Virus record (IMG/VR): IMGVR_UViG_3300045141_000018
Span: 1 to 42,542 of that record
Direction: 5' to 3' (one strand)
DNA: 42,542 bases
DNA from: a virus
The notes beneath the pieces are model-generated. The model searched no databases. It had not been told where the DNA came from and was given only the letters and a program-made list of their open reading frames with translations. Made by a program: the position numbers and the translations under genes. This document shows, piece by piece, positions 4,268-42,215 of this stretch. Each line of letters opens with the position of its first letter. Position 1 is the first letter of the stretch.

Positions 4268-4650
4268 TTAATGTCGACGGTTTTGATGTAAATGAATTCG
4301 TCGAACATCATGGCATTAAAGGAATGCACTGGGGAATTAGAAATCCAGAAAGTCGAGTTCGGCTTGCAAGACGAAACAAGCCAAAACCAAGTAGTGATTT
4401 CAAGAAGAGTGCTCCGCATAGAGGTAAGCCAGCTCATACGTTGACCAACAAGCAACTGAAAGCGGTCAACGAACGTATGAATTTGGAACAAAACTATCGA
4501 CGGATGAATCCAAGTACTATGAAAAAAGGAAGCATGGCGGTCGGTGCTATCATAGGTGCTGCTACTACAGCAACTACTATATACAATATGTATAACAGTC
4601 CGGCCGGAAAAGCGGCTATTGCTGCTGGTAAGAAAGCACTTCACAAATAG
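4264..4650 (+). CDS. Head-module protein with HHGIKG-WG N-terminal motif (128 aa)
   Basis: GTG start in the end of the previous gene, with CTAAGGAGGAGG upstream. Near the N-terminus is VEHHGIKGMHWGIR, a motif found at the start of many phage head-module proteins of unknown function. The middle is basic (RLARRNKPKPSSDFKKS), and residues about 95-115 form an Ala/Gly-rich hydrophobic segment (MAVGAIIGAATTATTIY) that could span a membrane or pack in the virion interior. A second protein with the same motif lies at 6405-6782. Possible roles: internal virion protein or assembly helper. Confidence 0.6.
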   Translation: MINVDGFDVNEFVEHHGIKGMHWGIRNPESRVRLARRNKPKPSSDFKKSAPHRGKPAHTLTNKQLKAVNERMNLEQNYRRMNPSTMKKGSMAVGAIIGAATTATTIYNMYNSPAGKAAIAAGKKALHK

Positions 4651-4662
4651 TAAGGAGGAGGA

Positions 4663-6408
4663 TTGACTCTATCTAATACTGCTACTCCTTATTACTATGG
4701 ACAATTTCGTGCGTCAGTCCTTGCTGGAGAAATTCCAGTTAATCGAGAAATTTCTATGGAGATGAATCGTATCGATGAACTCATTGCCAATCCTAACATC
4801 TACTACGATGACGGGGCTGTGCTTGGGTTCATTCATTATTGTGAATTCGAACTTACTCTTACTGATGGTAGCGATTTACATCTTCTAGATACATTCAAAC
4901 TTTGGGCAGAGCAAATCTTTGGTTGGTACTTCTTCGTTGAACGAAGCGTTTATCAACCGAACGAGGGAGCTGCCGGAGGACACTACGTAAAGAAGCTTAT
5001 CAAGAAACGACTCACCACAAAGCAATACCTCATCGTAGCCAGAGGGTCGGCCAAGTCGATGTATGCGCAATGCATTCAAGCATACTTCTTAAATGTGGAT
5101 ACCGCAACGACTCATCAAATCACAACGGCCCCAACGATGAAACAAGCCGAAGAAGTAATGTCTCCGTTCAGAACCGCTATCACAAGAGCCAGAGGCCCAC
5201 TCTTCAAGTTCTTAACCGAGGGTTCCTTGCAGAACACCACGGGATCAAGAGCACAAAGAGTAAAGTTGGCCTCGACCAAGAAGGGCATAGAGAACTTCTT
5301 GACTGGTTCGTTGCTCGAAGTACGTCCTATGACGATCAACAAGCTTCAAGGTCTTCGACCTAAGGTGTCTACCATCGACGAATGGTTGTCAGGAGACATC
5401 AGAGAAGATGTTGTCGGTGCAATCGAGCAAGGTGCTTCGAAGATGGAAGACTATTTGATCGTTGCTATTAGTTCGGAAGGAACAGTTCGGAATGGTTCTG
5501 GTGACACCGTCAAAATGGAACTTGCCAGCATTCTGAAGGGTGAGTATCAAGCACCACACATTTCCATTTGGCATTACAAACTGGATGACATTGAAGAAGT
5601 TGCCGATCCTTCGACGTGGTTGAAGGCAAATCCAAATCTTGGTAAGACAGTTACCTATGATGTCTACCATTTGGATGTTGAAAGAGCAGAAAAGGCTCCC
5701 GCTGTTAGGAACGACATCCTCGCAAAGAGGTTTGGAATTCCTATGGAGGGATACACCTACTTCTTTACTTACGAAGAGACGCTTCCTCATCGTGCAAGAG
5801 AGTTTTGGGGAATGCCGTGTGCGCTTGGTGCTGACCTTTCACAGGGTGATGACTTCTGCGCCTTTACTCTTCTCTTTCCTTTCCAGAATTATTCGTTTGG
5901 GGTCAAGACACGAAGCTACATAACGTCTTTGACACTCATGAAACTTCCTGGTGCTATGCGTGCCAAGTACGAAGAGTTTGTTCGTGAAGGCAGTCTACAC
6001 GTTCTTGACGGAACTGTCTTGGACATGATGGAAGTTTATGATGATTTAGACGCATTTATAAGACAAAACGAATACGACGTTCGTTGTTTTGGATTCGACC
6101 CTTATAACGCCAAAGAATTCGTTACAAGATGGGAAATTGAGAATGGTTCGTTTGGAATTGAGAAAGTAATTCAAGGTTCAAGAACTGAATCGGTTCCTCT
6201 AGGTGAATTGAAGATCTTGGCTGAGGAACGCAAGCTGATTTTCGATCAAGAATTGATGTCATTTGCTATGGGCAACGCAGTTACTTTGGAAGACACAAAC
6301 GGAAACCGAAAACTTCTAAAGAAACGTGCTGAAGAAAAGATCGACAACGTCTCTGCGATGATGGATGCATACGTTGCCTATAAAGCTAACAAGGAGGCGT
6401 TTGAGTGA
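4663..6408 (+). CDS. terL: Terminase large subunit (581 aa)
   Basis: TTG start after AAGGAGGAGG. ATP-powered DNA packaging motor and nuclease. Walker A-type loop VARGSAKS with Lys131 (Ser-Ala replaces the usual Gly before Lys-Ser); Walker B VSTIDEW with Asp239-Glu240. The C-terminal RNase H-like nuclease shows Asp391 in GADLSQGDD, Asp479 in GFDPYN and Asp568 in MMDAYVAYK, matching the three metal-binding acidic residues. Length is typical of HK97-type TerL. It lies between two HHG-motif proteins and overlaps the downstream GTG start by 4 bases. The portal and capsid genes follow, so the order is canonical. Confidence 0.93.
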   Translation: MTLSNTATPYYYGQFRASVLAGEIPVNREISMEMNRIDELIANPNIYYDDGAVLGFIHYCEFELTLTDGSDLHLLDTFKLWAEQIFGWYFFVERSVYQPNEGAAGGHYVKKLIKKRLTTKQYLIVARGSAKSMYAQCIQAYFLNVDTATTHQITTAPTMKQAEEVMSPFRTAITRARGPLFKFLTEGSLQNTTGSRAQRVKLASTKKGIENFLTGSLLEVRPMTINKLQGLRPKVSTIDEWLSGDIREDVVGAIEQGASKMEDYLIVAISSEGTVRNGSGDTVKMELASILKGEYQAPHISIWHYKLDDIEEVADPSTWLKANPNLGKTVTYDVYHLDVERAEKAPAVRNDILAKRFGIPMEGYTYFFTYEETLPHRAREFWGMPCALGADLSQGDDFCAFTLLFPFQNYSFGVKTRSYITSLTLMKLPGAMRAKYEEFVREGSLHVLDGTVLDMMEVYDDLDAFIRQNEYDVRCFGFDPYNAKEFVTRWEIENGSFGIEKVIQGSRTESVPLGELKILAEERKLIFDQELMSFAMGNAVTLEDTNGNRKLLKKRAEEKIDNVSAMMDAYVAYKANKEAFE

Positions 6409-6782
6409 TCTTAGAGGGTGATCCAATTGTAGATTTCCTCGAACATCACGGTGTTAAAGGACAAAAATGGGGTGTTCGAAGAAAACAAAATCGTATTGCT
6501 AGACAAGTAAAGAGACAACAAGGCGGTATTGATAGATATCGTCGGGTTGCCAAAGGAAAAGGCAGTCTCGGAGATAAGTTAACGGTTGGTTTGAACACTT
6601 CTCTGTATGAACGATTGAGAGAAGGATCGCTTCAAAACGTCGCTAAGTCAGATCTTGAGACGCAAAGAAGAATTCAAAAAGATATTCTAAACGGAAAACG
6701 AAAGACAAGAGCATTACTACTTAAGTCGGCCGGAGTTCATATTAGTGAGCTCAAATACAACTATAGAACTTATAAGGGGTGA
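6405..6782 (+). CDS. Head-module protein with HHGVKG-WG N-terminal motif (125 aa)
   Basis: GTG start overlapping the terL stop, with AAGGAGG upstream. Residues 12-26 read FLEHHGVKGQKWGVRR, the same motif as in the 4264-4650 protein. The rest is strongly basic and helical (QVKRQQGGIDRYRR; NGKRKTRALLLKS), suggesting nucleic-acid or capsid-interior contact. Located between terminase and portal. The two proteins share little beyond the motif, so the motif looks like a portable targeting or processing tag. Confidence 0.6.
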   Translation: MILEGDPIVDFLEHHGVKGQKWGVRRKQNRIARQVKRQQGGIDRYRRVAKGKGSLGDKLTVGLNTSLYERLREGSLQNVAKSDLETQRRIQKDILNGKRKTRALLLKSAGVHISELKYNYRTYKG

Positions 6783-8057: not shown

Positions 8058-8080
8058 CTCTTTTGAAAGGAACTGTCAAA

Positions 8081-9955
8081 ATGGAAGCAGATTTCAGCGG
8101 ATACGCGACCAAAGCCGGGCTTAAGTGCACCGACGGTCGTACTATCATGCCTGGCGCATTCAAACATCAGGATCAGATGAAAGTTCCTCTTGTTTGGCAG
8201 CATGGTCATACTGACCCCGAGAATGTTCTTGGTCATGCCATCCTCGAAAATCGAGACGATGGGGTTTATGCTTACGGATTTTTCAATACCTCCGCAAAAG
8301 CGGCTCATGCAAAGGGCCTAGTTGAGCACAAAGACATCAACATGTTGTCTATCTGGGCGAATGAGCTGGTCGAGCGGGCAGGAAGAGTTCTTCACGGAGC
8401 TATCCGTGAGGTAAGTCTTGTTCTTTCGGGTGCCAACCCAGGCGCTCTCATTGAAAACGTCACTATTCGTCACTCAGATGGTGACGAAGAAATGATCGAC
8501 GACGAAGCCATTATTTACACGGGTCTCGAACTTGAACTTGAACACGCTGACAATACTTCTAATTCGGATAACACTGATAATCAAAACTCCGGCGATGGCC
8601 CGACCATCCAAGACGTTTATGATTCAATGACTCCTGAACAGCAGGACGTTCTTCATTACATGGTTGGTCAGGCACTTTCAGAAGGTTCTGATGGTGGAAC
8701 TGCACAGCAAGACAATCTTGATGACGATTCCAATGATTCCGATAAGGAAGGCAGTGAGATGACCCGAAATGTTTTCGAGAAAGATGACAAAGGTGAAGAG
8801 TCGTCAGTTCTTTCTCATGCTGATGTTCAAGGTATTGTTGCTGATGCAACCAAGACGGGCTCACTCAAGCAAGCCGTCGAGAACTACGCTCTTGCGCACG
8901 GTATTAACCAAATCGATACTCTCTTTCCGGAAGCTACAGCACTTACTACTTCCCCGGAATTCTACACTCGTCGCACAGAATGGGTGAACTCGGTTCTTAA
9001 CGGAGCTCGTAAGACGCCATTCAGCCGGGTCAAGACTCACTGGGCAGACCTCACGTACGACGACGCTCGTGCAAAGGGTTACATCACCGGTAATGAGAAG
9101 CAAGAAGAGTTCTATGCAACGGCTCGTCGTGAGACAAACCCTCAGACGATTTACAAGAAGCAGAAACTTGATCGTGACGACATCATCGACATCACCGACT
9201 TCGACGTCGTGGCGTGGATGAAGGGTGAAATGCGCATCATGCTCGACGAGGAGCTCGCAAGAGCAATTCTCGTTGGAGACGGTCGTACGGCTCCCGATCC
9301 CGATCAGATTTTGCACGATCGTATTCGTCCCATCGCCACAGACGACCCGATCTTCACCATTCAAGTCAAGGCTGACATTACCACGGCAGGAACGGATATT
9401 TCACATCTCGTCGATGCGATTATTCAGTATCGTGCACAGTATCGTGGTACTGGAATGCCTACAATGTACACGAGCGAAGCTCTTATCTCTCAATTCATGC
9501 TATTGAAGGACACGCTTGGTCGTCGTATTTACAGCTCCTTGGACCAGGTTGCCTCAGAGCTTCGAGTTGCGGCAATTATTCCGGTGGATATTTTCGATCC
9601 GGCCGCAGGTAACCCATTGGCACTTATTGTCAACATGAATGACTACGTTATTGGTGCGGATAAGGGTGGCGCAGTTAGCTTGTTCGACGATTTCGACATC
9701 GACTACAACCAGTACAAGTACCTTATCGAAACTCGTTGTTCAGGTGCTTTGGTTAAGTTGAAGTCTGCAATTTGTGTTACGCAAGGTACATTCGTTCCTC
9801 CGCCTGCTGGTACTGCTCACATTATCGTTCCTGAGCCGCCGAACGAACGTCAGAGTGTTCCTCCGCAACACGGATCACTCCCTGACGCTGGTGGAACAAC
9901 GACAGAAGCACAGTCTGCACAACGTGAAGGGCGTCGTACTCCTCCTGAAGAGTAA
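8081..9955 (+). CDS. Prohead protease fused to major capsid protein (624 aa)
   Basis: ATG at 8081 chosen over an in-frame TTG at 8063 because AAAGGA lies 9 bases upstream. Residues 1-135 are a Peptidase_S78-type prohead protease: His41 in WQHGHTD and Ser90 in NMLSIWAN are the expected catalytic residues, followed by AIREVSLVLSGANPGA. Residues 136-245 are a very acidic, Asn/Asp/Gln-rich linker that may act as scaffold. From about residue 250 the sequence is an HK97-fold capsid protein (ATARRETNPQTIYKKQKLDR, MYTSEALISQFM, CSGALVKLKSAI). The C-terminal about 45 residues are Pro-rich and polar. Self-cleavage should release mature capsid subunits. No separate protease, scaffold or capsid gene is present. 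Confidence 0.88.
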   Translation: MEADFSGYATKAGLKCTDGRTIMPGAFKHQDQMKVPLVWQHGHTDPENVLGHAILENRDDGVYAYGFFNTSAKAAHAKGLVEHKDINMLSIWANELVERAGRVLHGAIREVSLVLSGANPGALIENVTIRHSDGDEEMIDDEAIIYTGLELELEHADNTSNSDNTDNQNSGDGPTIQDVYDSMTPEQQDVLHYMVGQALSEGSDGGTAQQDNLDDDSNDSDKEGSEMTRNVFEKDDKGEESSVLSHADVQGIVADATKTGSLKQAVENYALAHGINQIDTLFPEATALTTSPEFYTRRTEWVNSVLNGARKTPFSRVKTHWADLTYDDARAKGYITGNEKQEEFYATARRETNPQTIYKKQKLDRDDIIDITDFDVVAWMKGEMRIMLDEELARAILVGDGRTAPDPDQILHDRIRPIATDDPIFTIQVKADITTAGTDISHLVDAIIQYRAQYRGTGMPTMYTSEALISQFMLLKDTLGRRIYSSLDQVASELRVAAIIPVDIFDPAAGNPLALIVNMNDYVIGADKGGAVSLFDDFDIDYNQYKYLIETRCSGALVKLKSAICVTQGTFVPPPAGTAHIIVPEPPNERQSVPPQHGSLPDAGGTTTEAQSAQREGRRTPPEE

Positions 9956-20938: not shown

Positions 20939-20968
20939 TTCGCAGCATAAACATCTACTATAATGAGC
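20939..20968 (+). promoter_or_regulatory. Repeated promoter-like element, copy 1
   Basis: TTCGCA (20939-20944), 14-base spacer with ACAT at positions 7-10, TATAAT (20959-20964), GAG. Directly follows the last tail gene and lies 22 bases before the next GTG, so it probably starts the accessory region. Confidence 0.75.
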
Positions 20969-21559: not shown

Positions 21560-21589
21560 TTCGCAAGAAATACATCCTTTGTAATGAGA
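21560..21589 (+). promoter_or_regulatory. Repeated promoter-like element, copy 2
   Basis: TTCGCA (21560-21565), spacer with ACAT at positions 7-10, TGTAAT (21580-21585), GAGA. No protein gene follows before the next copy; it heads the short non-coding segment at 21586-21660. Confidence 0.75.
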
Positions 21590-21660
21590 GGGTAATTCGA
21601 AAGAATTAAACACAATCCCCGGAATTACCGGAGGACAACCCTCTCCTTTAATTTTGTTTT
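21586..21660 (+). ncRNA. Candidate small RNA 1 (closed 5'-3' stem)
   Basis: GAGAGGG (21586-21592), immediately after the -10-like hexamer, pairs with CCCTCTC (21639-21645), followed by a T-rich tail. Inside are AATTC-GAAA-GAATT (21594-21607) and CCGG-AATTA-CCGG. The segment lies between two promoter-like copies and holds no frame. Alternatively it is only an early terminator. The exact transcription start is unknown. Confidence 0.5.
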
Positions 21661-21689
21661 TCGCAAGCCACACATGGTCTATAACGAGA
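21660..21689 (+). promoter_or_regulatory. Repeated promoter-like element, copy 3 (variant)
   Basis: TTCGCA (21660-21665), 14-base spacer with ACAT at positions 7-10, TATAAC (21680-21685), GAGA. The last hexamer base is C instead of T, the only such change among the copies. Precedes the gene at 21729. Confidence 0.7.
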
Positions 21690-22237: not shown

Positions 22238-22267
22238 TTCGCAAGATATTCATGTGTTATAATGAGA
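22238..22267 (+). promoter_or_regulatory. Repeated promoter-like element, copy 4
   Basis: TTCGCA (22238-22243), 14-base spacer with TCAT at positions 7-10, TATAAT (22258-22263), GAGA. Heads the structured non-coding segment at 22264-22390. Confidence 0.78.
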
Positions 22268-22879: not shown

Positions 22880-22909
22880 TTCGCATATTTTACACACACT
22901 ATAATGAGA
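22880..22909 (+). promoter_or_regulatory. Repeated promoter-like element, copy 5
   Basis: TTCGCA (22880-22885), 14-base spacer with ACAC in place of WCAT, TATAAT (22900-22905), GAGA. The first base overlaps the stop codon region of the lipoprotein gene. Precedes the gene at 22929. Confidence 0.75.
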
Positions 22910-23138: not shown

Positions 23139-23168
23139 TTCGCAAGAAAATCATCCATTGTAATGAGA
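23139..23168 (+). promoter_or_regulatory. Repeated promoter-like element, copy 6
   Basis: TTCGCA (23139-23144), 14-base spacer with TCAT at positions 7-10, TGTAAT (23159-23164), GAGA. Heads the segment 23165-23235. Confidence 0.78.
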
Positions 23169-23252: not shown

Positions 23253-23393
23253 ATGAGTTGTTCGTGCCATGGACCGTGTAATTGTCAACCACGTTATGGA
23301 TTCTTTAAATTCTGTGGGGATGTCTTCATGACGATCTTCACATGCGGGTTCTGGCTAATCTGGATATTTGTGAGGGAGATGCGTAAACGATGA
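23253..23393 (+). CDS. Cys-rich small membrane protein (46 aa)
   Basis: Excellent TAAGGAGGTGTC site before ATG. Begins MSCSCHGPCNCQPRYGFF, with four Cys and a His in the first eleven residues, a possible metal-binding knot, then one membrane span (VFMTIFTCGFWLIWIFV) and a basic end (REMRKR). It overlaps the next ATG by 4 bases (ATGA). Function unknown. Confidence 0.7.
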   Translation: MSCSCHGPCNCQPRYGFFKFCGDVFMTIFTCGFWLIWIFVREMRKR

Positions 23394-24142
23394 ACCTGGG
23401 ACAAGTTGGTAACATAATCAGAAGGAATGCGAAGCATCATTCACCACTTATTCTGTCCGCTTTCGCAGGTGTCGGTACGATAATGACAGCATATTTGGCA
23501 GCTAAGGCAACTGTCGAAGCTGTGGATCTGCTGGATGAATACGAAGAGCTTAATGGTATTAGCGACGATCCCAAAGAGCGTCTAATGGAGCGTACCAAAG
23601 TTGTCTGGACACTTTATATCCCAGCAGCGGTTTCTGCGACTTCTACAATCATTTGCATCGTCAGTGCGAATCGAGTTCAAGCCAGTAAGACCCTCGCTGC
23701 CCAAACTGCATTCACTGTATCCCAGCAACTATATTCTGAGTATCGAGATAAAGTCGTTGAAGAGTTCGGTGCACGTAAAGATCAATCCATTAGAGATAGT
23801 GTTGCTCAAGAACGAGTACTGAAAGAGCCACCCCCGTCTCCGGATATTTTAGTGAGCGGTCCAGGGAACGTCTTGTGTTGTGAATTGTTCACTGGGCGAT
23901 ATTTCACAAGTGACATGGAGACGTTAAGAAGAGCTCAGAACGATTTGAATTCGAGACTGTTGTCGCAGGATTATGCAACGCTGTACGATTTCTATTACAT
24001 GATAGGGCTGTCGGCGACATCATATTCTGAGCAACTCGGTTGGAAGTCTGACAAGCTGATGGATTTGCAGTTCTCCACAGTGTTGACGGACGATGGAAGA
24101 CCATGTCTTTCGTTTGACTACAACTATACGACTACGTTGTAA
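23390..24142 (+). CDS. Conserved phage membrane protein, DUF6353-like (250 aa)
   Basis: ATG overlaps the previous stop. Two spans: about residues 18-38 (PLILSAFAGVGTIMTAYLAA) and 73-92 (LYIPAAVSATSTIICIVSAN). A charged helical region (EYRDKVVEEFGARKD) follows, and the end contains TLYDFYYMIGLSATSYSEQL and GW, a small conserved C-terminal unit also seen in the proteins at 24882 and 25531. The overall layout matches a conserved phage membrane family I associate with DUF6353. Role unknown; possibly a membrane platform for phage functions. Confidence 0.65.
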   Translation: MNLGQVGNIIRRNAKHHSPLILSAFAGVGTIMTAYLAAKATVEAVDLLDEYEELNGISDDPKERLMERTKVVWTLYIPAAVSATSTIICIVSANRVQASKTLAAQTAFTVSQQLYSEYRDKVVEEFGARKDQSIRDSVAQERVLKEPPPSPDILVSGPGNVLCCELFTGRYFTSDMETLRRAQNDLNSRLLSQDYATLYDFYYMIGLSATSYSEQLGWKSDKLMDLQFSTVLTDDGRPCLSFDYNYTTTL

Positions 24143-24172
24143 TTCGCAAGTAAATCATGCGTTATAATGAGA
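24143..24172 (+). promoter_or_regulatory. Repeated promoter-like element, copy 7
   Basis: TTCGCA (24143-24148), 14-base spacer with TCAT at positions 7-10, TATAAT (24163-24168), GAGA. Begins right after the previous stop; next ATG is at 24193. Confidence 0.78.
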
Positions 24173-24192: not shown

Positions 24193-24363
24193 ATGTCTGA
24201 GGAAATTGTGGTCGTGGAAGTCGATGATCTGCCGACGATTCACAAGTTCGGGAAGTATGCGTTGGGCTGTTTAGTAGCCTTCGCAGCTACCCAGCTTGCG
24301 GATAAGTTGTATGACATGGCGTACACGATGTACAAAGCACAGAAGGCAAGTTCCGGACGTTGA
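24193..24363 (+). CDS. Small membrane protein (56 aa)
   Basis: ATG at 24193 chosen over one at 24157, which lies inside the promoter-like element, because GAAAGGATTG precedes it. Acidic start (SEEIVVVEVDDLPTIHKF), one weakly hydrophobic span (YALGCLVAFAATQLADKLY) and a short basic end. A terminator hairpin follows immediately, making another one-gene unit. Function unknown. Confidence 0.65.
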   Translation: MSEEIVVVEVDDLPTIHKFGKYALGCLVAFAATQLADKLYDMAYTMYKAQKASSGR

Positions 24364-24365
24364 TT

Positions 24366-24402
24366 AAAGGAGGAGAGGCCCTAACACGGCTTCTCCTTTT
24401 TT
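24366..24402 (+). terminator. Rho-independent terminator
   Basis: AGGAGAGGCC (24371-24380) and GGCTTCTCCT (24388-24397) pair with one G-U, loop CTAACAC, tail TTTTTT. Located three bases after the stop of the small membrane protein. The following gene must be reached by read-through, because no promoter-like copy lies between. Confidence 0.8.
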
Positions 24403-24422
24403 CTCACAGAGAAGGACGAAGA

Positions 24423-24872
24423 GTGCTTAAGCGTGATATCACTTACGAAGATTTTAATGGGGAGACGGTCACCGAGACATTCTATTTCAATCTTACAAAG
24501 ACCGAAATCATCGAGCTGGAAGTCCAGTACAAGACTGGATTGGAAGAAACAATCAAAGCAATCATCAAAGCAGAAGACAACAAGTCTCTTATCGCTGAGT
24601 TCAAGAAGATCGTTCTTCTCGCATACGGTGTGAAATCTGATGATGGAAGACGATTCATCAAGAACGAAACGCTTCGTGAAGAGTTTGCTCAGAGTGCTGC
24701 GTATGATGCGTTGTTCATGGAGATGGCATCAAACGAGGCAGTGGCTGCTGAGTTCATCATGGGAGTCATTCCAAAAGATTTGACAATCGATCAGGATAAG
24801 CCAGACGGTCCTCCACGTCCTCGAGGGCTTGTGGACGTGCCACTTCCGCCTGTTCCGCCGGGCGTAACTTAA
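24423..24872 (+). CDS. Conserved phage protein of unknown function (149 aa)
   Basis: The frame is open from TTG 24360, but that start would translate through the terminator; GTG at 24423, with GAAGGACGAAG upstream, is preferred. Sequence LKRDITYEDFNGETVTETFY, NLTKTEIIELEVQYKTGLEE, ALFMEMASNEAVAAEFI and a Pro-rich tail (PPRPRGLVDVPLPPVPPG). I recognise a conserved phage family with an F-N-G-E...F-Y-F-N-L-T-K start. The family resembles small tail-assembly chaperones in length and composition, but its position away from the tail genes argues against that. Function unknown. Confidence 0.7.
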   Translation: MLKRDITYEDFNGETVTETFYFNLTKTEIIELEVQYKTGLEETIKAIIKAEDNKSLIAEFKKIVLLAYGVKSDDGRRFIKNETLREEFAQSAAYDALFMEMASNEAVAAEFIMGVIPKDLTIDQDKPDGPPRPRGLVDVPLPPVPPGVT

Positions 24873-25502: not shown

Positions 25503-25530
25503 ATGTGTGTAGGTCGTGAGAGGAGTAAGA

Positions 25531-26418
25531 ATGGACATTAATTCAATAACAAGAAGATTTAATCGATCTATATTAGTAAGTAAGAAGCAATCCCCGCATA
25601 TTTTCTTTGCTGCTGGTGTAATCGGTGCGGTGACAAGCACAGTGCTCGCATGTCGAGCGACATTGAAGCTCTCAGAGAGCCTCGACAAGATCAAGACTGA
25701 TGTCGATAACGTACATGCGTTGAATCCAGAGAAGCAAGAATCTGACACGGACATCGTCAGGTATCCGACCGATCAGTATCGTAAGGATCTGGGTTATGTG
25801 TACGGAAAAGCAGCATTGGAGATCACAAAGCTGTATGGTCCGTCAATTGTTATCGGTGTGGCATCAATCGGTGCGTTAACTGGTTCGCATGTTCAGTTGA
25901 CACGCCGTAATAGTGCTTTGATGGCAGCTTACGCAGCCGTTCAGCAAGCATATTTGGAATACCGTGAACGTGTTAAGCAAGAGCTAGGTCCGGAAAGGGA
26001 ACTGGATATTTATCATGCTGCCAGTTTCGAAGTGGTTGAGAACGCAGACGGTAAGAAAGAAGAAGTAAAGGTTGTAGATCCGAACAAGTATTCTCCTTAC
26101 GCAAGGTTCTTTGATGAGTATTCACAGCATTGGGAGAAGGATCCGGAACTGAATCGGCTCTACATTCAATGCCAGCAGAACTATGCCAACAATTTGCTGC
26201 AAGCAAGAGGGCATCTGTTTCTAAATGAAGTGTATGACATGCTGGGTGTCGATCGATCCAAAGCAGGGGCAGTGGTCGGTTGGGTAATCAGCGACGTAGG
26301 TGACAACTATGTCGACTTCGGAATCTACGAAGCCTATAACGGAAGGTTCGTAAACGGTTTCGAACGCTCAATCCTGCTTGATTTCAATGTCGATGGTGTC
26401 ATCTACGACAAGATTTAA
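25531..26418 (+). CDS. Conserved phage membrane protein, DUF6353-like (295 aa)
   Basis: ATG at 25531 after GAGAGGAGTAAG; an upstream ATG lacks a good site. Spans at about residues 25-43 (IFFAAGVIGAVTSTVLACRA) and 95-115 (SIVIGVASIGALTGSHVQL). Then AYAAVQQAYLEYRERVKQEL, a long charged region, and GHLFLNEVYDMLGVDRSKAG-AVVGW, the family hallmark. Paralogue of the 23390-24142 protein: same spacing of two spans, EYR motif, and final Y-D-x-x-x-x-x-G...GW. Function unknown. Confidence 0.75.
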   Translation: MDINSITRRFNRSILVSKKQSPHIFFAAGVIGAVTSTVLACRATLKLSESLDKIKTDVDNVHALNPEKQESDTDIVRYPTDQYRKDLGYVYGKAALEITKLYGPSIVIGVASIGALTGSHVQLTRRNSALMAAYAAVQQAYLEYRERVKQELGPERELDIYHAASFEVVENADGKKEEVKVVDPNKYSPYARFFDEYSQHWEKDPELNRLYIQCQQNYANNLLQARGHLFLNEVYDMLGVDRSKAGAVVGWVISDVGDNYVDFGIYEAYNGRFVNGFERSILLDFNVDGVIYDKI

Positions 26419-27742: not shown

Positions 27743-30700
27743 GTGGATTTCTATAAGATAAGAGTAAAAGAAACTAAAGGATTTCCTCAAGCATACCCTG
27801 ACTGGGTCGTTGATCATTTTGATGACTTGATGGTTAGAGGCGGCTCATTCTATGCCGTTTGGGATGAGCAACGTGGTATGTGGTCTACAAACGAGTTGGA
27901 TGTGCAGAGGATTGTAGACGCCGATTTGCAGGCCTTCGTCGATGAAGCTGAGCGAAAAGGACAGATTATTGAACCTTTGCTCACCAGAAATTTTAGTACC
28001 GGTAGTTGGGAACGATTCAACAAGTATATTCGAAATCTTCCTGACAAGGGTAACTATCATCCTTTGGATGAGAACATAACCTTTGCTAATACAGAAGTCA
28101 CGAAGAAAGATTACGTCAGTAAGAAACTTCCATATTCTCTCGTCGAGGGACGAACGGACGCTTGGGAAGAGTTGCTCAGCGTTCTATATTCTCCTGAAGA
28201 GAGAGACAAAATCGAGTGGACTATTGGTGCTATTATTTCTGGGGATTCAAAGTGGATTCAAAAGTTCCTCGTGTTTTATGGACCCCCTGCCAGTGGTAAA
28301 TCGACAGTTATCAGTATCATGGAGAAGCTCTTCACCGGATATTTGACAACGTTCGAAGCGAAGGCACTGACAAGTAGCAACGGTACGTTTGCAATGGAAT
28401 CGTTTGAATACAATCCGTTAGTTGCTATTCAACACGATGGTGATTTGTCAAGGATAGAAGACAACACCAGATTGAATTCCATTGTTGGTCACGACTCGAT
28501 GAACATCAACGTCAAGTATCGATCGTCGTTTACCATCCGACCGAATGCGTTTCTGGTCATGGGTACAAACAAGCCTGTGAAGATTACGGATGCAAAAGCT
28601 GGTAACACTCGACGATTGATCGACGTTCATCCAACGAATGTAAGAATTGAAGTAGGGCGATACCATATTCTGGTTGAGAACATCAACTATGAACTTGGAG
28701 CTATTGCTCATAAATGTCTCAGTCGTTATCGAGACATGGGGAAATTCTATTACGATAATTACATTCCGACGAAGATGATGATGTTGACAGACAGCTTCTA
28801 CAACTTTGTGGAGGCTCACTTCGATATTTTCAAAGCTGAAGATGGCATACAACTAAAACGTGTTTGGGAGCTTTACAAGATCTATTGTGAAGAAGCAAAC
28901 ATTTTGAAACGTCGTCAGTATCATGAAGTTAGAGACGAACTGTCAAGCTATTTCGAAGATTTCAAAGATCGATATTTCATCGGAGATAAGGAGTACCGTA
29001 GTGTTTACATCGGATTCAAAGGACTCCCGGAGCAAGGGCCGGTTCCGTTCGTTCCTGACCGGACATACGTTATTGAGCTGGATGATTATAATCCCGCTGA
29101 TCGCCCTTCTGCCTTTAATAATTCGTGCGCTTCGCAACCGGCGCAAAGAGCTAACTCTAACGGACTACCGACCCAAAAGTGGGAAAACGTCATCACAACC
29201 TTGGGAGAGCTCGATCCCACAAGACTCCACTTTGTAAAGGTTCCTGAGAACCACATCGTCATTGACTTCGATTTGGTGGATGAGAAAGGAGAGAAAAGTC
29301 TTGAACGCAATATTGAGGCTGCATCCAAATTCCCACCAACGTATACAGAAGTCAGTCAAAGTGGCGAAGGTTTGCATCTGCATTACACTTATAGCGACGA
29401 TGTTAGTGAGCTCGTTAGCGTACTGGAACCCGGAGTAGAGATTAAAACGCTTCTTGGTGATAGTTCGCTCCGGCGGAAACTTACCAAGTGCAATAATTTA
29501 GATATAATGAGTTTCAGTGGAGGCCTACCGAGAAAAGAGAAGAAGATGCTCAAGGCTAAGAACATTCAAAGTGAAAAAGGTCTCCGAGAACTCATAGAAC
29601 GCAACCTCAGGAAAGAAATTCATCCAGGAACGAAGCCATCAATCGACTTCATTCATCATATTCTTGAGGATGCATACGACAACGGTCTCAGTTACGACGT
29701 CACTGATCTGCGACCAAAGATCCTGACCTTTGCAACTAATAGTACTCATCAATCCTTGGCATGTATCAAAATCGTGCAGACGATGCGGTTTGTCGGTAAG
29801 AACGAGATGCCAGAAGAAACAAATTTCGAAGACAAGCCTTTAGTCTTCTTCGATGTGGAGGTATATCCTAATCTCTTCATCGTGTGTTGGAAGGTTCAAG
29901 ACTCTGATCAAGTCGTCCGCATGATCAATCCATGCATGCTGGACATAGAACCGTTGTTCCAACAGAAACTTGTGGGCTTCAACAATCGTCGATACGACAA
30001 CCATATTCTGTACGCTCGTTATCTCGGTTACTCCCTCGAGGAATTGTTTCTGCTGAGTCAGAAGATTATCTACAACGAGAAGACAAATAACAGCGCATTG
30101 TTCGGTGAGGCTTACAATCTGTCTTATGCGGATATTTACGACTTTAGTTCTAAGAAGCAGGGGTTGAAGAAGTTTCAGATCGATCTCGGTATACATCACC
30201 AAGAGCTTGATCTACCATGGGATCAACCAGTCCCAGAAGGACAGTGGTCAAAGGTAGAAGACTACTGTGTCAACGATGTCATATCCACGGAAGCTGTCTT
30301 CAACGATCGTGAACAGGACTTCGTGGCACGAAAGATTCTCTCCGAGCTGTCAGGACTTTCTGTCAACCATACGACACAACAGCACACCGCTAGGATCATA
30401 TTTGGCGAGGACAAACATCCTCAGAGACAATTTATATACACAGATTTGAGTGAGGAGTTCCCAGGCTATGTCTTCGATGGAAAGCAAAGTACGTATGGTG
30501 AAGAGGTTACGGGTGAAGGTGGCTACGTATATTCTGAACCGGGTTATTATACCGATGTTGCAGTCTTAGACATCGTCTCTATGCATCCTACGAGCATAAG
30601 GATGCTTAATCTCTTCGGGCCTTATACGAAGAAGTACAACGAACTCATAGATGCTCGAATCGCCATTAAACGTAAGGATTATGATGCAGCGTCGGAGATG

Positions 30701-31510
30701 TTCGACGGTAGATTGCGTCAGTTCTTAATAGATCGTGAAGAAGTGTATGACATTGAAGCAGCTAACGATTTGGCATACGCTCTAAAGATCGTAATCAACA
30801 TTGTATACGGATTGACCAGCGCTCGATTCGAGAACATGTTTCGGGATAATCGTAACAAGGATAATATAGTCGCCAAACGTGGCGCATTATTTATGATTGA
30901 CCTGAAGCATGCTGTCCAAGAGCAGGGTTATACCGTAGCCCACATCAAAACCGATTCCATCAAGATTCCTAATGCAGACTCACAGATTATTCAATTTATC
31001 ATTGATTTCGGACAGGAGTATGGTTATGAGTTCGAGCACGAATGCACCTACGACAAGCTATGCCTCGTCAACGATGCAGTATACGTTGCTAGTAGCTCTG
31101 ATGGCTGGACTGCTGTGGGAGCACAATTCCAGCATCCGTATGTTTTCAAGGAACTGTTTTCACATGCTCCGTTGGAATTTGACGATCTTTGTGAAGTCAA
31201 GAGCGTTAAGCAAGGACGTATCTACCTTGACATCCCAGGAAACGGAATCTTCGACGAGATGAGACTTGTCGGGACGACAGGAGCGTTCATGCCTGTTGAG
31301 AACGGCGGTGGAATCTTGTGGAGGGTCAAGGACGAGAAGAATCATCGAGTCACTGGCACAACCGGTTATTTGTGGATCGAACGTGAGGTTGCTGCTTATC
31401 GAGAATCCCTTGGCGAGCTCCATACTGACATGTCATATTTCGATAAGTTGAAGAACGACGCTATTGCAGCGATTGAAAAGTTTGTTCCGTACGAGGAGCT
31501 CGTATCGTAA
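27743..31510 (+). CDS. SF3 helicase / primase-like / family B DNA polymerase fusion (1255 aa)
   Basis: GTG start after AAGGGAGGG. Four modules can be seen. (1) Residues about 120-330, superfamily 3 (D5/P4-type) helicase: Walker A GPPASGKST with Lys186, Walker B LVAIQHDGD around 226-234, motif C FLVMGTNKP with Asn276, Arg fingers 290-291. (2) Residues about 440-640, resembling archaeo-eukaryotic primase: Asp508-x-Asp510 in VIDFDLVD and SGEGLHLHY at 540-548. (3) 3'-5' exonuclease: Asp704/Glu706 in FFDVEVYPN, Asp752 in NNRRYDNH, Asp845 in YCVNDV. (4) Polymerase: motif A Asp943 in DIVSMHP, motif B Lys1015 to Gly1023 in KIVINIVYG, motif C IKTDSI at 1068-1073. It should replicate the phage genome; one chain would supply unwinding, possibly priming, proofreading and synthesis. 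Confidence 0.88.
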   Translation: MDFYKIRVKETKGFPQAYPDWVVDHFDDLMVRGGSFYAVWDEQRGMWSTNELDVQRIVDADLQAFVDEAERKGQIIEPLLTRNFSTGSWERFNKYIRNLPDKGNYHPLDENITFANTEVTKKDYVSKKLPYSLVEGRTDAWEELLSVLYSPEERDKIEWTIGAIISGDSKWIQKFLVFYGPPASGKSTVISIMEKLFTGYLTTFEAKALTSSNGTFAMESFEYNPLVAIQHDGDLSRIEDNTRLNSIVGHDSMNINVKYRSSFTIRPNAFLVMGTNKPVKITDAKAGNTRRLIDVHPTNVRIEVGRYHILVENINYELGAIAHKCLSRYRDMGKFYYDNYIPTKMMMLTDSFYNFVEAHFDIFKAEDGIQLKRVWELYKIYCEEANILKRRQYHEVRDELSSYFEDFKDRYFIGDKEYRSVYIGFKGLPEQGPVPFVPDRTYVIELDDYNPADRPSAFNNSCASQPAQRANSNGLPTQKWENVITTLGELDPTRLHFVKVPENHIVIDFDLVDEKGEKSLERNIEAASKFPPTYTEVSQSGEGLHLHYTYSDDVSELVSVLEPGVEIKTLLGDSSLRRKLTKCNNLDIMSFSGGLPRKEKKMLKAKNIQSEKGLRELIERNLRKEIHPGTKPSIDFIHHILEDAYDNGLSYDVTDLRPKILTFATNSTHQSLACIKIVQTMRFVGKNEMPEETNFEDKPLVFFDVEVYPNLFIVCWKVQDSDQVVRMINPCMLDIEPLFQQKLVGFNNRRYDNHILYARYLGYSLEELFLLSQKIIYNEKTNNSALFGEAYNLSYADIYDFSSKKQGLKKFQIDLGIHHQELDLPWDQPVPEGQWSKVEDYCVNDVISTEAVFNDREQDFVARKILSELSGLSVNHTTQQHTARIIFGEDKHPQRQFIYTDLSEEFPGYVFDGKQSTYGEEVTGEGGYVYSEPGYYTDVAVLDIVSMHPTSIRMLNLFGPYTKKYNELIDARIAIKRKDYDAASEMFDGRLRQFLIDREEVYDIEAANDLAYALKIVINIVYGLTSARFENMFRDNRNKDNIVAKRGALFMIDLKHAVQEQGYTVAHIKTDSIKIPNADSQIIQFIIDFGQEYGYEFEHECTYDKLCLVNDAVYVASSSDGWTAVGAQFQHPYVFKELFSHAPLEFDDLCEVKSVKQGRIYLDIPGNGIFDEMRLVGTTGAFMPVENGGGILWRVKDEKNHRVTGTTGYLWIEREVAAYRESLGELHTDMSYFDKLKNDAIAAIEKFVPYEELVS

Positions 31511-32826: not shown

Positions 32827-32856
32827 GACGCAAAATATACATACATTATAATGAGA
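32827..32856 (+). promoter_or_regulatory. Repeated promoter-like element, copy 8
   Basis: GACGCA (32827-32832) replaces TTCGCA, 14-base spacer with ACAT at positions 7-10, TATAAT (32847-32852), GAGA. Another TTCGCA starts nine bases earlier but at the wrong spacing. Confidence 0.72.
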
Positions 32857-33866: not shown

Positions 33867-33896
33867 CTCGCACAAAATACATACAATATAATGAGA
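33867..33896 (+). promoter_or_regulatory. Repeated promoter-like element, copy 9
   Basis: CTCGCA (33867-33872), 14-base spacer with ACAT at positions 7-10, TATAAT (33887-33892), GAGA. Precedes the small membrane protein gene at 33926. Confidence 0.75.
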
Positions 33897-33925: not shown

Positions 33926-34132
33926 ATGGAGAACAAGACTTCAGAAGCTGATTTGGACGCCACTGAGAAGAGTGCGAGCGTTGTTGCTTGGGTACTGGTT
34001 GGATTCGCCGCTTTCGGCGCATTCACAGCAGTCACCAAGGCCAACAAGGTGCTCAAGGCTCGGATCGAGAAGCGTGCCATCAAGCGGTTTCAGAAGGATC
34101 TGGAACTTCAGAGCGAACTCAAAAGTAAGTAA
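33926..34132 (+). CDS. Small single-span membrane protein (68 aa)
   Basis: AAAGGAG site before ATG, in a one-gene promoter-terminator unit. Acidic N-terminus (MENKTSEADLDATEKSA), span (VVAWVLVGFAAFGAFTAVT), then a long basic helix (KANKVLKARIEKRAIKRFQK). By the positive-inside rule the C-terminus is cytoplasmic. Shares this plan, not obvious sequence, with the next gene. Function unknown. Confidence 0.7.
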   Translation: MENKTSEADLDATEKSASVVAWVLVGFAAFGAFTAVTKANKVLKARIEKRAIKRFQKDLELQSELKSK

Positions 34133-34137
34133 CTCAT

Positions 34138-34172
34138 AAAGGAGGTATCAGGAAACTGGTACTTCCTTTTTG
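34138..34172 (+). terminator. Rho-independent terminator with GAAA loop
   Basis: AAGGAGGTATCAG pairs with CTGGTACTTCCTT (13 pairs with two G-U) around a GAAA tetraloop, followed by TTTTT. Six bases after the stop. Confidence 0.85.
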
Positions 34173-34181
34173 CTTTTTCTC

Positions 34182-34211
34182 TTCGTAGGAATTACATACA
34201 TTGTAATGAGA
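34182..34211 (+). promoter_or_regulatory. Repeated promoter-like element, copy 10
   Basis: TTCGTA (34182-34187), 14-base spacer with ACAT at positions 7-10, TGTAAT (34202-34207), GAGA. Begins ten bases after the preceding terminator. Confidence 0.78.
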
Positions 34212-34230
34212 CCCTACACAGGAGAAACTA

Positions 34231-34503
34231 ATGAACGAGAACGGAAAGCAAACCGCAGCAATCGTTGTTGGAGCTATCGCCGCTGTTGGAGTACTCGCTG
34301 TCAAATGCACCAAAACAGTGCGTGCAGGACGTAAGGAACGCAAAGAGATCAAGGCCAATGAGGCCAAAGACATCGAAGCGATGCGTACGGCCGCGCTGCT
34401 TGTTAAGGAGCGTTTGGTCAGCGGTACATACAGAGGCCAGAGCTTGAAAACGATTATGTCGGACCTAGAGTTCGAGACAATGGTCGCTCGTGAGGAATGG
34501 TAA
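34231..34503 (+). CDS. Small single-span membrane protein (90 aa)
   Basis: ATG after ACAGGAGAAAC. N-terminal span (AAIVVGAIAAVGVLAVKCT), basic linker (RAGRKERKEIKANEAKD) and a helical C-terminus with SGTYRGQSLKTIMSDLEFET. A one-gene unit like its neighbours. Function unknown; may be a membrane-active host-modifying protein. Confidence 0.7.
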   Translation: MNENGKQTAAIVVGAIAAVGVLAVKCTKTVRAGRKERKEIKANEAKDIEAMRTAALLVKERLVSGTYRGQSLKTIMSDLEFETMVAREEW

Positions 34504-34544
34504 TCAAAAGAGGAGGTATCTGTAACAGGATACTTCCTTTTTGC
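34501..34544 (+). terminator. Terminator, identical copy A
   Basis: AGGAGGTATC (34511-34520) pairs with GATACTTCCT (34529-34538), loop TGTAACAG, then TTTTT. The whole 44-base segment from the stop codon TAA on is repeated identically at 34765-34808. Confidence 0.85.
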
Positions 34545-34545
34545 C

Positions 34546-34575
34546 TTCGTAGGATTTACATGCATTGTAATGAGA
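34546..34575 (+). promoter_or_regulatory. Repeated promoter-like element, copy 11
   Basis: TTCGTA (34546-34551), 14-base spacer with ACAT at positions 7-10, TGTAAT (34566-34571), GAGA. Nearly identical to copy 10; precedes the gene at 34594. Confidence 0.78.
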
Positions 34576-34593
34576 ACCTACGAGAGGAATAAG

Positions 34594-34767
34594 ATGAACC
34601 AGCATGTACGCAACATTCTTGATGATTCGATGACGGTTGAGTCAGAAGTTAAAAGACTTCTAAGTAAGCAAGAGCTTACGTTGGGAGACTTTGACAACCT
34701 GATCAAAAACTGTGATCAAATCAAAGAAGCGGCGACAGTTGCTAGACAACTTGTTTACGGAAAGTAA
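34594..34767 (+). CDS. Small helical soluble protein (57 aa)
   Basis: ATG at 34594 chosen because CGAGAGGAATAAG precedes it; an ATG at 34570 falls in the promoter-like element. Sequence MNQHVRNILDDSMTVESEVK, then LLSKQELTLGDFDNLIKNCD and a helix (QIKEAATVARQLVYGK). Unlike the neighbouring cassettes it has no membrane span. Function unknown. Confidence 0.65.
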   Translation: MNQHVRNILDDSMTVESEVKRLLSKQELTLGDFDNLIKNCDQIKEAATVARQLVYGK

Positions 34768-34808
34768 TCAAAAGAGGAGGTATCTGTAACAGGATACTTC
34801 CTTTTTGC
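34765..34808 (+). terminator. Terminator, identical copy B
   Basis: Same 44 bases as 34501-34544, starting at the TAA stop codon. Stem 34775-34784 with 34793-34802, then TTTTT. Suggests recent duplication or recombination between cassettes. Confidence 0.85.
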
Positions 34809-34840
34809 TTTTGATATATTTTTTTAACTAAGGAGAAACA

Positions 34841-37570: not shown

Positions 37571-37600
37571 CCTGCAGCTCACACATATATTGTAATGAGG
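37571..37600 (+). promoter_or_regulatory. Repeated promoter-like element, copy 12
   Basis: CCTGCA (37571-37576), 14-base spacer with ACAT at positions 7-10, TGTAAT (37591-37596), GAGG. The weakest match in the upstream hexamer. Lies before the small acidic gene and endolysin. Confidence 0.68.
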
Positions 37601-39539: not shown

Positions 39540-42215
39540 GTGATGCTCGTGCTAATAGAAGAGGCCGACCTTCTCCATTATGGCATTATTCGTAGATCAG
39601 GGCGTTACCCGTGGGGTTCTGGCGGTAATGTAGACGGTGTTAGTGAAGATCAGCACAACAAAATTCTGTTAGATTATATTGCTGAGTTAAGAAGCAAAGG
39701 TCTTAGCGAAGGAGAAATTGCCAAAGGCCTTGGCATGAGTATGAATGAGCTTCGTGCCGAGAAGACCATTGCTAGAAATCAGCAAAAGCAATCTCAAATT
39801 GTCCTGGCCCAGCGTTTGAAGGATAAGGGGTACGGTCCGACCGCAATTGGACAGAGAATGAACATTCCTGAGTCTACTGTTCGAACGTTGCTTGCTCCTG
39901 GTGCCAAGGACAAAGCTGATCAACTTGAAACCACCGCAAACATGCTCATGCAACAAGTCGATGAGAAGAAGATGGTACAAGTAGGTAGTGGTGTTGAGAA
40001 TTATATTGGAGTTCCAAGATCACGACTTGATGTAGCCATTCAGATGGCAAAGATGCATGGGTATGAACTTCACACAGTGGGCGAGCGTCAAGTTGCAACA
40101 GGCGAAACCACCCGAATCAAGGTTCTTTGCACTCCTGGGATGACTCAAAAAGAAGCATGGATGAATAGAGCCAACATTCAGCTTCTCCAATCATATTCTG
40201 AAACCGGTGGAAGATCATTTTCGAAGTTGCACGAGCCCCTCAAATTGGATCCAAAGCGTGTGGCAGTTGTTTATGGATCCGAAGGGGGCGACAAAGCAGA
40301 CGGAATGATCTACGTTCGTCCCGGTGTTAAAGATGTTGAGTTGGGTGCAAATAACTACGCACAAGTTCGTGTTGCTGTGGGAAATGATCATTACCTCAAA
40401 GGTATGGCAACCTATAAGAAGGACATGCCGGAAGGTGTGGATGTTCAATTCTATACAGCTAAAGAAAGTAGTGGTAACAAGCTAGATGCAATGAAGAAGA
40501 ATGTAGAAGAAGGTTATGGTCCCAACGGAGAGCACCCTCTTCTAAGATCTACCCGTCGTCAGATCTTAGAAAATTCTGGCACACCAGATGAGCGTGTAAC
40601 GTCGGCTATGAATCTTGTTAATGAAGAAGGCAATTGGGAAGATTGGTCCAAGAACCTATCCTCCCAGTTCCTTTCAAAACAAAGCCGTGCTCTGGCTAAA
40701 TCACAGCTTGACATGACCTATGAACGTCGACAGTTTCAATTGGAAGACATCAACAAGCTTACGAATGCTGTGGTTCGTAAGAAGCTTCTTAAGAATTTCT
40801 ATGAAGCAACCGATTCTGCAGTAGTTCATCTCAAGGCAGCCGCTTTACCACGTATGGGCAACCATGTAATTTTACCAATACCAAGCATGAAGATAAATGA
40901 AATCTATGCCCCTCGTTTTGCTAGTGGAGAAACCGTTGTCCTGATTCGTCATCCACACGGGGGGCCTTTTGAAATTCCTAGGCTTACTGTTAACAACAAA
41001 CATGCTGAAGCAAAGCGGTTGCTCGGAGATGCGAGAGATGCGGTTGGTATTAATCATCTAGTCGCTAAGAGACTATCTGGTGCAGATTTCGATGGTGATA
41101 CGGTTCTTGTAATACCGGATGATCGAACACAAATTAGAGATGACCCCGCTTTGGAGGGTCTCAAAGATTTCAATCCTCAATCAGCATACCCTGGTTATCC
41201 AGGAATGAAGATAATGTCAAATACGCAATCGGAGATGGGTAAGATTTCTAATCTTATTACTGACATGTCTTTGGCTGGTGCACCATCATCAGAAATGGTG
41301 AGGGCTGTTAAACATTCAATGGTTGTCATTGATGCAGAGAAGCATGGTTTAGATCATAAGCTATCTGAAAATGATAACAACATCAAGCAGCTTAAGAAGA
41401 AGTATCAATCAGGAGGTGGTGGATCAACCATCATCTCAAGGGCTAGAGCAAGAATAGATGTGCCATATAGAATAGATCGGCCTGCTTCTGAAGGTGGGCC
41501 CATCAATAAGACTACTGGTGAACGTGAGTACAAGTACCTAGATAAGACGAGCTATAAGACGGGTAAGCCTAGGACTATAAAGAGTAAGAAGTTAGCAGAG
41601 GTTAGGGATGCATTTGATCTTGTGCAGGGCCACCCTATGGAGATCATTTATGCAAACCATGCTAACAAACTAAAGGCCTTAGCTAACCGTGCCCGCCTTG
41701 ACTATGTTAATACCCCCACCCCCAAGCAGTCGCCCTCTGCAAAGAAGGCGTATGCAAAAGAAGTGGCCTCCCTTGATGCTAAGTTAGACCTCGCCCTTAG
41801 GAACCGGCCTCTTGAACGGCAGGCCCAACTCCTAGCCAATGTCAACATCAAGGCAAGACATAACGCTAATCCAGGAATGGATTCTGATACACGAAAGAAG
41901 ATTGAATACCAGGCACTACAAGAAGCCCGTGTTCGTGTAGGTGCAAGAAAGAATGACATAGAGTTTACTGATTCTGAATGGGACGCTATTCAAGCAGGCG
42001 CAGTTAGTACCAACAAACTAACACAGATGCTTGACAAAGCTAACATGGAAGACGTGTATAAGCACGCTACTCCAAAGGATCAGATACTAATGACACCAGC
42101 TAAGACAGCTCGAGCTACAGCCATGTTGGCTTCTGGTTATGATAGAGCTCAAGTCGCAGCACATCTTGGTGTATCACTCAGTACATTGGACAAAGGTATT
42201 AAGGAAGGTGGATGA
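39540..42215 (+). CDS. Single-chain RNA polymerase-like protein with HTH domains (891 aa)
   Basis: GTG 39540, ATG 39543 or GTG 39549 are possible starts; AAAGGGGGTG favours 39549. Residues 11-29 hold a tag-like LLHYGIIRRSGRYPWGSGG. Residues 40-120 look like two helix-turn-helix units (GLSEGEIAKGLGMSMNEL; GYGPTAIGQRMNIPESTVR). Residues about 230-305 fit a first double-psi barrel: GMIYVRPGVKDVELGANN and KGMATYKKDMPEGVDVQF, like the beta-subunit catalytic region. Residues 465-522 fit a second: LIRHPHGGPFEIP and RLSGADFDGDTVLVIP with Asp516, 518 and 520, the metal-binding triad of multisubunit, YonO-like and crAss-like polymerases. A last HTH ends the chain. It could transcribe phage genes. Confidence 0.8.
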   Translation: MMLVLIEEADLLHYGIIRRSGRYPWGSGGNVDGVSEDQHNKILLDYIAELRSKGLSEGEIAKGLGMSMNELRAEKTIARNQQKQSQIVLAQRLKDKGYGPTAIGQRMNIPESTVRTLLAPGAKDKADQLETTANMLMQQVDEKKMVQVGSGVENYIGVPRSRLDVAIQMAKMHGYELHTVGERQVATGETTRIKVLCTPGMTQKEAWMNRANIQLLQSYSETGGRSFSKLHEPLKLDPKRVAVVYGSEGGDKADGMIYVRPGVKDVELGANNYAQVRVAVGNDHYLKGMATYKKDMPEGVDVQFYTAKESSGNKLDAMKKNVEEGYGPNGEHPLLRSTRRQILENSGTPDERVTSAMNLVNEEGNWEDWSKNLSSQFLSKQSRALAKSQLDMTYERRQFQLEDINKLTNAVVRKKLLKNFYEATDSAVVHLKAAALPRMGNHVILPIPSMKINEIYAPRFASGETVVLIRHPHGGPFEIPRLTVNNKHAEAKRLLGDARDAVGINHLVAKRLSGADFDGDTVLVIPDDRTQIRDDPALEGLKDFNPQSAYPGYPGMKIMSNTQSEMGKISNLITDMSLAGAPSSEMVRAVKHSMVVIDAEKHGLDHKLSENDNNIKQLKKKYQSGGGGSTIISRARARIDVPYRIDRPASEGGPINKTTGEREYKYLDKTSYKTGKPRTIKSKKLAEVRDAFDLVQGHPMEIIYANHANKLKALANRARLDYVNTPTPKQSPSAKKAYAKEVASLDAKLDLALRNRPLERQAQLLANVNIKARHNANPGMDSDTRKKIEYQALQEARVRVGARKNDIEFTDSEWDAIQAGAVSTNKLTQMLDKANMEDVYKHATPKDQILMTPAKTARATAMLASGYDRAQVAAHLGVSLSTLDKGIKEGG

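Follow-up and report, generated by a model that had tools for sequence, protein, structure and literature searches.

The window analysed here comprises the whole of a 42,542-base virus record, whose gene order and content match those of Streptomyces phage Bilo and Arthrobacter phage GantcherGoblin. As in both of these phages, the penultimate gene encodes a predicted single-chain two-barrel RNA polymerase (RNAP). Its open reading frame of 891 amino acids occupies positions 39540–42215, as given in a preliminary description of this DNA, and starts with GTG, the next ATG following at 39543; it lies on the plus strand, like the tagged proteins, the capsid fusion and the promoter-like elements located below. 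The gene adjoins replication and nuclease genes and is away from the head cluster. Elsewhere, the window holds two adjacent genes for collagen-like Gly-x-x repeat proteins with a similar N-terminal segment in both (841–2951), a gene for a Phage_TAC_17 protein, of a tail assembly chaperone family, that lies in the early/middle region and apart from the tail genes (24360–24872), and a gene for a 1255-amino-acid DNA polymerase to which a primase-like region is joined (27743–31510; phrog_4210).

The RNAP family is not new, as it is already catalogued as phrog_4291, the profile of which matches the protein over its full length (residues 6–889, 1131.7 bits); the phrog_4291 records belong to the same family, full length and at 35–52% identity. 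A protein search of a phage collection found at least 250 phage records with a homologue of about 35–52% identity (Arthrobacter 95, Gordonia 55, Streptomyces 54, Lactococcus 13 and others), the carriers infecting Actinobacteria, Lactococcus and Faecalibacterium, and IMG/VR holds at least 505 further homologues. The phage tallies are lower bounds: tblastn missed the RNAP of MT835495 (L319, 2408–5500, 39.5% identical). No relatives emerged from a plasmid search. A phosphoribosyltransferase-like match from NCBIfam to residues 41–183 was discarded, as it was sub-threshold and far below the cut-off. Homologues are annotated either as 'RNA-dependent RNA polymerase' or as 'helix-turn-helix DNA-binding protein', and the papers searched offered nothing on the function of the phrog_4291 RNAP beyond its name, with the tag, virion location and promoter treated below being undescribed in them.

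Fold, catalytic motifs and helix-turn-helix domains

The AlphaFold model of the RNAP, built with 80 relatives from the window and from contigs that were collected by active-site patterns only, has a pLDDT of 85 and a pTM of 0.75. Structure comparison by Foldseek and VIA-align placed QDE-1 (Z 18.2), maize RDR2 (Z 18.1), P74 gp62 (Z 14.1) and P32 gp64 (Z 13.9) at the top, followed by RNA polymerase II at a Z near 10. The aligned range with these four top matches, residues 231–723 (40230–41708), constitutes the catalytic core and includes both barrels. The β-like barrel (DPBB-B; residues 273–305, 40356–40454) carries HYLKGMATYKKDMP and is modelled as strands 273–280, 284–292 and 302–305; from residue 287 onwards runs KGMATYKKDMPEGVDVQF, in which the lysine K287 as well as G288 and P297 are invariant across the 80 sequences. 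On the same chain, the β′-like barrel (DPBB-A; residues 440–526, 40857–41117) contains LIRHPHGG, within the stretch LIRHPHGGPFEIP that begins at residue 468 and holds the invariant R470, P472 and H473, and the catalytic DFDGD (residues 516–520, 41085–41099). The latter provides the D-x-D-G-D metal site as D516-F-D518-G-D520, and all its columns (D516-F517-D518-G519-D520) are likewise invariant.

The preliminary description had picked out DFDGD, a β′-like segment upstream of it and a region resembling the β-subunit, and had proposed two double-psi barrels on one chain. All of these now have a place in a model that matches single-chain RNAPs over residues 231–723, and the structure prediction suggested there as a check returned two-barrel matches. 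Because the model matches both QDE-1 and the Thermus-phage RNAPs, the modelled product is, by fold and motifs, a two-barrel RNA polymerase, for which we predict polymerase activity. Sequence searches with phmmer and hmmsearch against PDB sequences returned only helix-turn-helix (HTH) and designed proteins. A sequence match to the tape-measure RNAP of P23-45 (8h2n) was dismissed as not significant (12.5 bits), and hhalign against YonO, with one single sequence on the YonO side, gave no core match. The virion RNAP of crAss-like phage phi14:2, gp66 (6VR4), is absent among the structure-search matches listed by Foldseek and VIA; it is likewise a single-chain two-barrel RNAP, and we know of no HTH fusion or comparable tag for crAss-like virion RNAPs.

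According to its database name, the enzyme would be an RNA-dependent RNA polymerase that copies RNA. This would agree with QDE-1 as the best structural match (the nearest solved fold among eukaryotic RdRPs, with a Z of 18 at about 14% identity) and with a match to PF05183 (eukaryotic-type RdRP) of 17.9 bits. However, the PF05183 match stays below the gathering threshold of 23.8 bits, QDE-1 uses DNA templates too, judging by the titles of its structure entries, and HTH DNA-binding domains combined with a DNA promoter element suit DNA templates, so that we consider this reading very improbable. QDE-1 is also an RNA-silencing enzyme, unlike a phage RNAP.

Two N-terminal HTHs and one C-terminal HTH had been proposed from the sequence, and the models place them at both ends of the chain. 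The tandem N-terminal HTH (residues about 42–118, 39663–39893) is recognized by PF13384 (HTH_23) above its gathering score (26.6 versus 24.6 bits, residues 90–116). At the C terminus (residues 853–888, 42096–42203; 853–890 in the models), the AlphaFold model is accompanied by sub-threshold matches to HTH_7 and HTH_8, with the resolvase and Fis HTH models covering residues 856–885 below cut-off. When the HTH domain alone was searched, Foldseek found no match below an E of 0.29 and VIA gave Z values of 6.7 or less; as modelled folds these HTHs are generic, and therefore no sigma origin is claimed for them. With HTH domains at both ends, the protein might also be a DNA-binding regulator without catalytic activity, in line with the annotation 'HTH DNA-binding protein'. 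However, no change is seen across 80 divergent sequences in the DFDGD triad, at K287 or at R470, and we give this possibility hardly any credence.

Among phage enzymes, the RNAPs of Thermus phages P23-45 and P74-26 are also single-chain two-barrel proteins, with a Z of about 14 to gp62 and gp64. These two are the nvRNAPs of their phages, and gp96 is a virion RNAP fused to the tape measure that transcribes pre-early genes (PMC10770324); in contrast to gp96, the RNAP described here is without a tape-measure fusion and has a short peptide tag and HTH domains instead. YonO of SPβ is likewise a single-chain phage RNAP with an aspartate triad; it is DNA-dependent and transcribes late genes, from a promoter that was not identified in that study (PMC5467207).

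An N-terminal tag and its head-linked relatives

Residues 11–28 of the RNAP (39570–39623) form the peptide LLHYGIIRRSGRYPWGSG, with the general form L-x-H-Y-G-..-SGRYPWGSG, within a stretch (residues 1–41) that is modelled at a pLDDT below 50; the peptide is predicted to be disordered. It is nevertheless present in 80 of the 80 relatives, which were gathered without reference to it (74 by the strict regular expression and six with an altered last residue). In a set that includes sequences found through the tag, block conservation is 0.84, versus 0.26 before and 0.42 after the block. What had been described as a tag-like start is thus a real tag, conserved like the active site at an N terminus that is otherwise poorly conserved.

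Two further tagged proteins are encoded in the head region of the window: one of 128 amino acids just upstream of the terminase gene (4264–4650; FVEHHGIKGMHWGIR, start HHGIKGMHWGIR) and one of 125 amino acids between the terminase and portal genes (6405–6782; FLEHHGVKGQKWGVR, start HHGVKGQKWGVR). Tagged proteins flank the terminase gene in every related phage for which a head region was examined. We collected this head-linked form, tag A, by a blind pattern scan for HYG[VI]KGMKWG, and a head marker is present in 113 of the resulting 118 loci; in loci with such a marker, 303 of 310 tag-A genes lie no more than 3 kb from TerL, portal or MCP. The protein bodies, once the tag is removed, fall into 86 clusters at an E of 1e-4 and 120 at 1e-10, with GNAT acetyltransferases and a papain-fold glutamine deamidase among them. 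DUF7211 (PF23847), listed in Pfam as of unknown function, matches 119 of the 120 tag-A representatives.

The RNAP gives no match to PF23847 up to an E of 10. A common tag core, [LIVFM]-x-H-x-G-x(2,6)-G-x(1,3)-W-G near the N terminus, is found in 195 of 209 RNAP ORFs and in 357 of 361 tag-A ORFs; the same expression matches 21 of 15,064 other ORFs, each of them a truncated RNAP or another tag, and no shuffled protein. Intermediates between the RNAP and head-linked forms occur in L219 and L223, and in contig L112 the RNAP form (tag B) heads three non-RNAP, GNAT-like proteins. At the sequence level, the RNAP tag is hence a variant of the DUF7211 peptide that heads many unrelated head-linked proteins. 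The strings KGMKWG and KWGVRR yielded no mention in the literature searched. In T4, the capsid-targeting sequence is an N-terminal peptide that sends diverse internal proteins into the prohead; it is unrelated in sequence, and the cargo here includes an RNA polymerase.

The tagged cargo sets vary greatly among phages, with seven DUF7211-type copies in 9 kb of L249 (the Rhodococcus phage ReqiPepy6 region) and six in L214. Part of the cargo adopts folds that are typical of effector enzymes, such as papain-fold glutamine deamidase and GNAT acetyltransferase, and among isolated phages some tagged genes are annotated as RNA ligase or amidase. Three tagged acetyltransferase-type proteins (L005 2095–3168, L237 1629–2705 and L270 5998–7104) carry a further tag in their interior, as though each consisted of two joined cargo units that might be cut apart.

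Virion record and co-inheritance with the capsid gene

In Lactococcus phage 1706, reportedly described by Garneau and colleagues in 2008, the homologue is orf75, which is 33% identical over 1002 columns and bears the tag LQHYGTKRHSGRYPWGSG. In the depositors' record (EU081845), orf75 is labelled 'structural protein', and so is orf7, which bears two tags and is the sole further tagged ORF detected in this phage. Structural labels are given to 11 of its 76 ORFs, counting one 'major structural', and the chance of both tagged ORFs being among them is about 0.02. Since orf75 has no morphogenesis homology and is far from the head genes, its label most likely stems from virion proteomics. By deposited label, one member of the family is therefore a virion protein, and the RNAP of the window is very probably packaged as well. 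Packaging is well supported, and the tag would then be the part that brings the polymerase into the particle.

Alternatively, a genuine two-barrel RNAP could be made only after infection and act outside the virion, with the tag serving, for example, cell localisation and the detection in 1706 virions reflecting carry-over. There is precedent for non-virion enzymes in YonO (PMC5467207) and P23-45 gp64 (PMC10770324), and the gene sits beside replication and nuclease genes, outside the head cluster. Yet this leaves aside the structural labels of both tagged 1706 proteins and the association of the tag elsewhere with head genes, and we regard it as unlikely.

If the polymerase is loaded through its tag, a possible receptor is the head protease–major capsid fusion (8063–9955; phrog_3270 and phrog_10), whose phylogenetic profile coincides with that of the RNAP. 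A single gene encodes both protease and major capsid protein here, an arrangement kept throughout the RNAP-carrying lineage. Tag A, RNAP and the fusion have identical genus tallies among 50,697 phages, and an apparent exception, a tagged fecal phage seemingly without RNAP (MT835495, the one checked), does encode it at 39.5% identity. As far as gene content can tell, this shows tag A, RNAP and the protease–capsid fusion to be a linked module, whose co-occurrence comes in part from common descent because all members belong to one phage lineage.

A repeated promoter-like element and its proposed use

A search for repeats in the record revealed TTCGCA-N7-CAT-N4-TRTAATGAG, also written as TCGCA-N6-ACAT-N4-TRTAATGAGA, in 12 copies, versus 0.06 expected from shuffled windows. 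The copies lie at 20939–20967, 21560–21588, 21660–21688, 22238–22266, 22880–22908, 23139–23167, 24143–24171, 32827–32855, 33867–33895, 34182–34210, 34546–34574 and 37571–37599, the last being the weakest with three mismatches. All 12 share the coding strand and fall within 20.9–37.6 kb, before early/middle genes and none among structural genes, several of them about 20–40 bases ahead of start codons, and they score 28 bits or more against the element matrix versus 13.3 for the next best site. The same element is found in Bilo (Streptomyces), GantcherGoblin (Arthrobacter) and 1706 (Lactococcus), where it reads TCGCATGTTTTACATATACTATAGTAGA and stands 17–18 bases ahead of several annotated starts, only in the early/middle region. 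At 34129–34811, three 48-nt copies of another stretch (GTAAtc-AAGAGGAGGTATC...TTCCTTTTTGC, up to 98% alike) precede small genes, the first two directly ahead of the tenth and eleventh elements. The early/middle region also encodes two DUF6353 paralogues (phrog_2152; 23390–24142 and 25516–26418), conserved in Bilo and GantcherGoblin and weakly in 1706.

A blind scan for the element across 2.9 million IMG/VR contigs gave 40 contigs that were tested for the RNAP, which is present in 30, including every one of the 21 that reach 41 kb; the other 10 are fragments under 37 kb. Conversely, the element occurs in 26 of 38 RNAP contigs, always on the strand of the RNAP, and in none of the 38 in a reversed control. 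The remaining 12, mostly with divergent Firmicutes-type RNAPs, are without this form of the element, as is FP_oengus; a motif search in element-less contigs (G060, G062 and G067–G070) and FP_oengus yielded chiefly ribosome-binding-site words and nothing that could convincingly replace it. Among the 25 genes common to four phages, the RNAP is the sole recognizable transcription protein, and we infer that it is the RNAP that recognizes the element. Of the earlier suggestion of a true promoter-recognising polymerase, the promoter side has thus gained a lineage-specific candidate, and recognition by the enzyme is a prediction.

In sigma-70 promoters, a −35 hexamer lies about 17 nt upstream of TATAAT. 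Here, the conserved blocks TTCGCA and ACAT lie 14 nt and 4 nt, respectively, from TRTAAT, which is followed by an invariant GAG, and this spacing does not fit a promoter of the sigma-70 type. Host RNAP could still read the element with a host or phage factor, the phage RNAP being otherwise as described: TATAAT equals the bacterial −10 consensus, and factors could be sought among the core proteins of unknown function (the DUF6353 pair, phrog_4079, phrog_4678 and phrog_4303). Besides the 14-nt gap and the GAG, however, the element differs little between hosts as dissimilar as Streptomyces and Lactococcus, and no other shared core protein resembles a transcription factor; we hold reading by the host enzyme to be conceivable, if doubtful.

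The explanation that we favour, and consider likely, is that of a virion-borne, DNA-dependent single-chain two-barrel RNAP, packaged through its tag and starting early/middle transcription at a dedicated promoter. The enzyme would be synthesised late in infection and addressed by its disordered N-terminal tag to the growing head, perhaps being loaded via the protease–capsid fusion, while the DUF7211 tag would likewise direct further cargo, whose genes neighbour those of terminase, portal and this fusion. Injected into the cell along with the DNA, it would recognize TCGCA-N6-ACAT-N4-TRTAATGAGA through its fused HTHs and core, initiate without a host sigma factor and transcribe the early/middle genes. 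If the RNAP starts early transcription at the repeated promoter, as it probably does, host transcription machinery would therefore not be needed at first. We also lean, with more modest conviction, towards extending this to a whole lineage over actinobacterial and Firmicutes hosts, with a sigma-independent RNAP that is packaged by a modular DUF7211-superfamily peptide shared with injected effectors and reads its own promoter via its HTHs.

Two-barrel phage RNAPs, virion RNAPs and the name phrog_4291 are already known. The novelty that the preliminary description had seen in joining HTHs to a tag does not extend to the family as such; it holds for the joint presence, in siphophages that infect Gram-positive bacteria, of a DUF7211-type cargo tag, fused HTHs and a predicted cognate promoter, of which we found no account in the open literature searched. 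If our reading is correct, about 250 isolated phages, many of which teaching laboratories can obtain, and hundreds of metagenomic ones carry an overlooked virion RNA polymerase, and a peptide tag would constitute a third route of polymerase loading, besides tape-measure fusion and the N4/crAss routes. A predicted promoter would be at hand for a single-chain two-barrel RNAP, which is not so for YonO, and DUF7211 would gain a function, making the injected cargo of these phages predictable from sequence alone. The compact enzyme–promoter pair could, furthermore, be an orthogonal expression tool in Streptomyces and its relatives.
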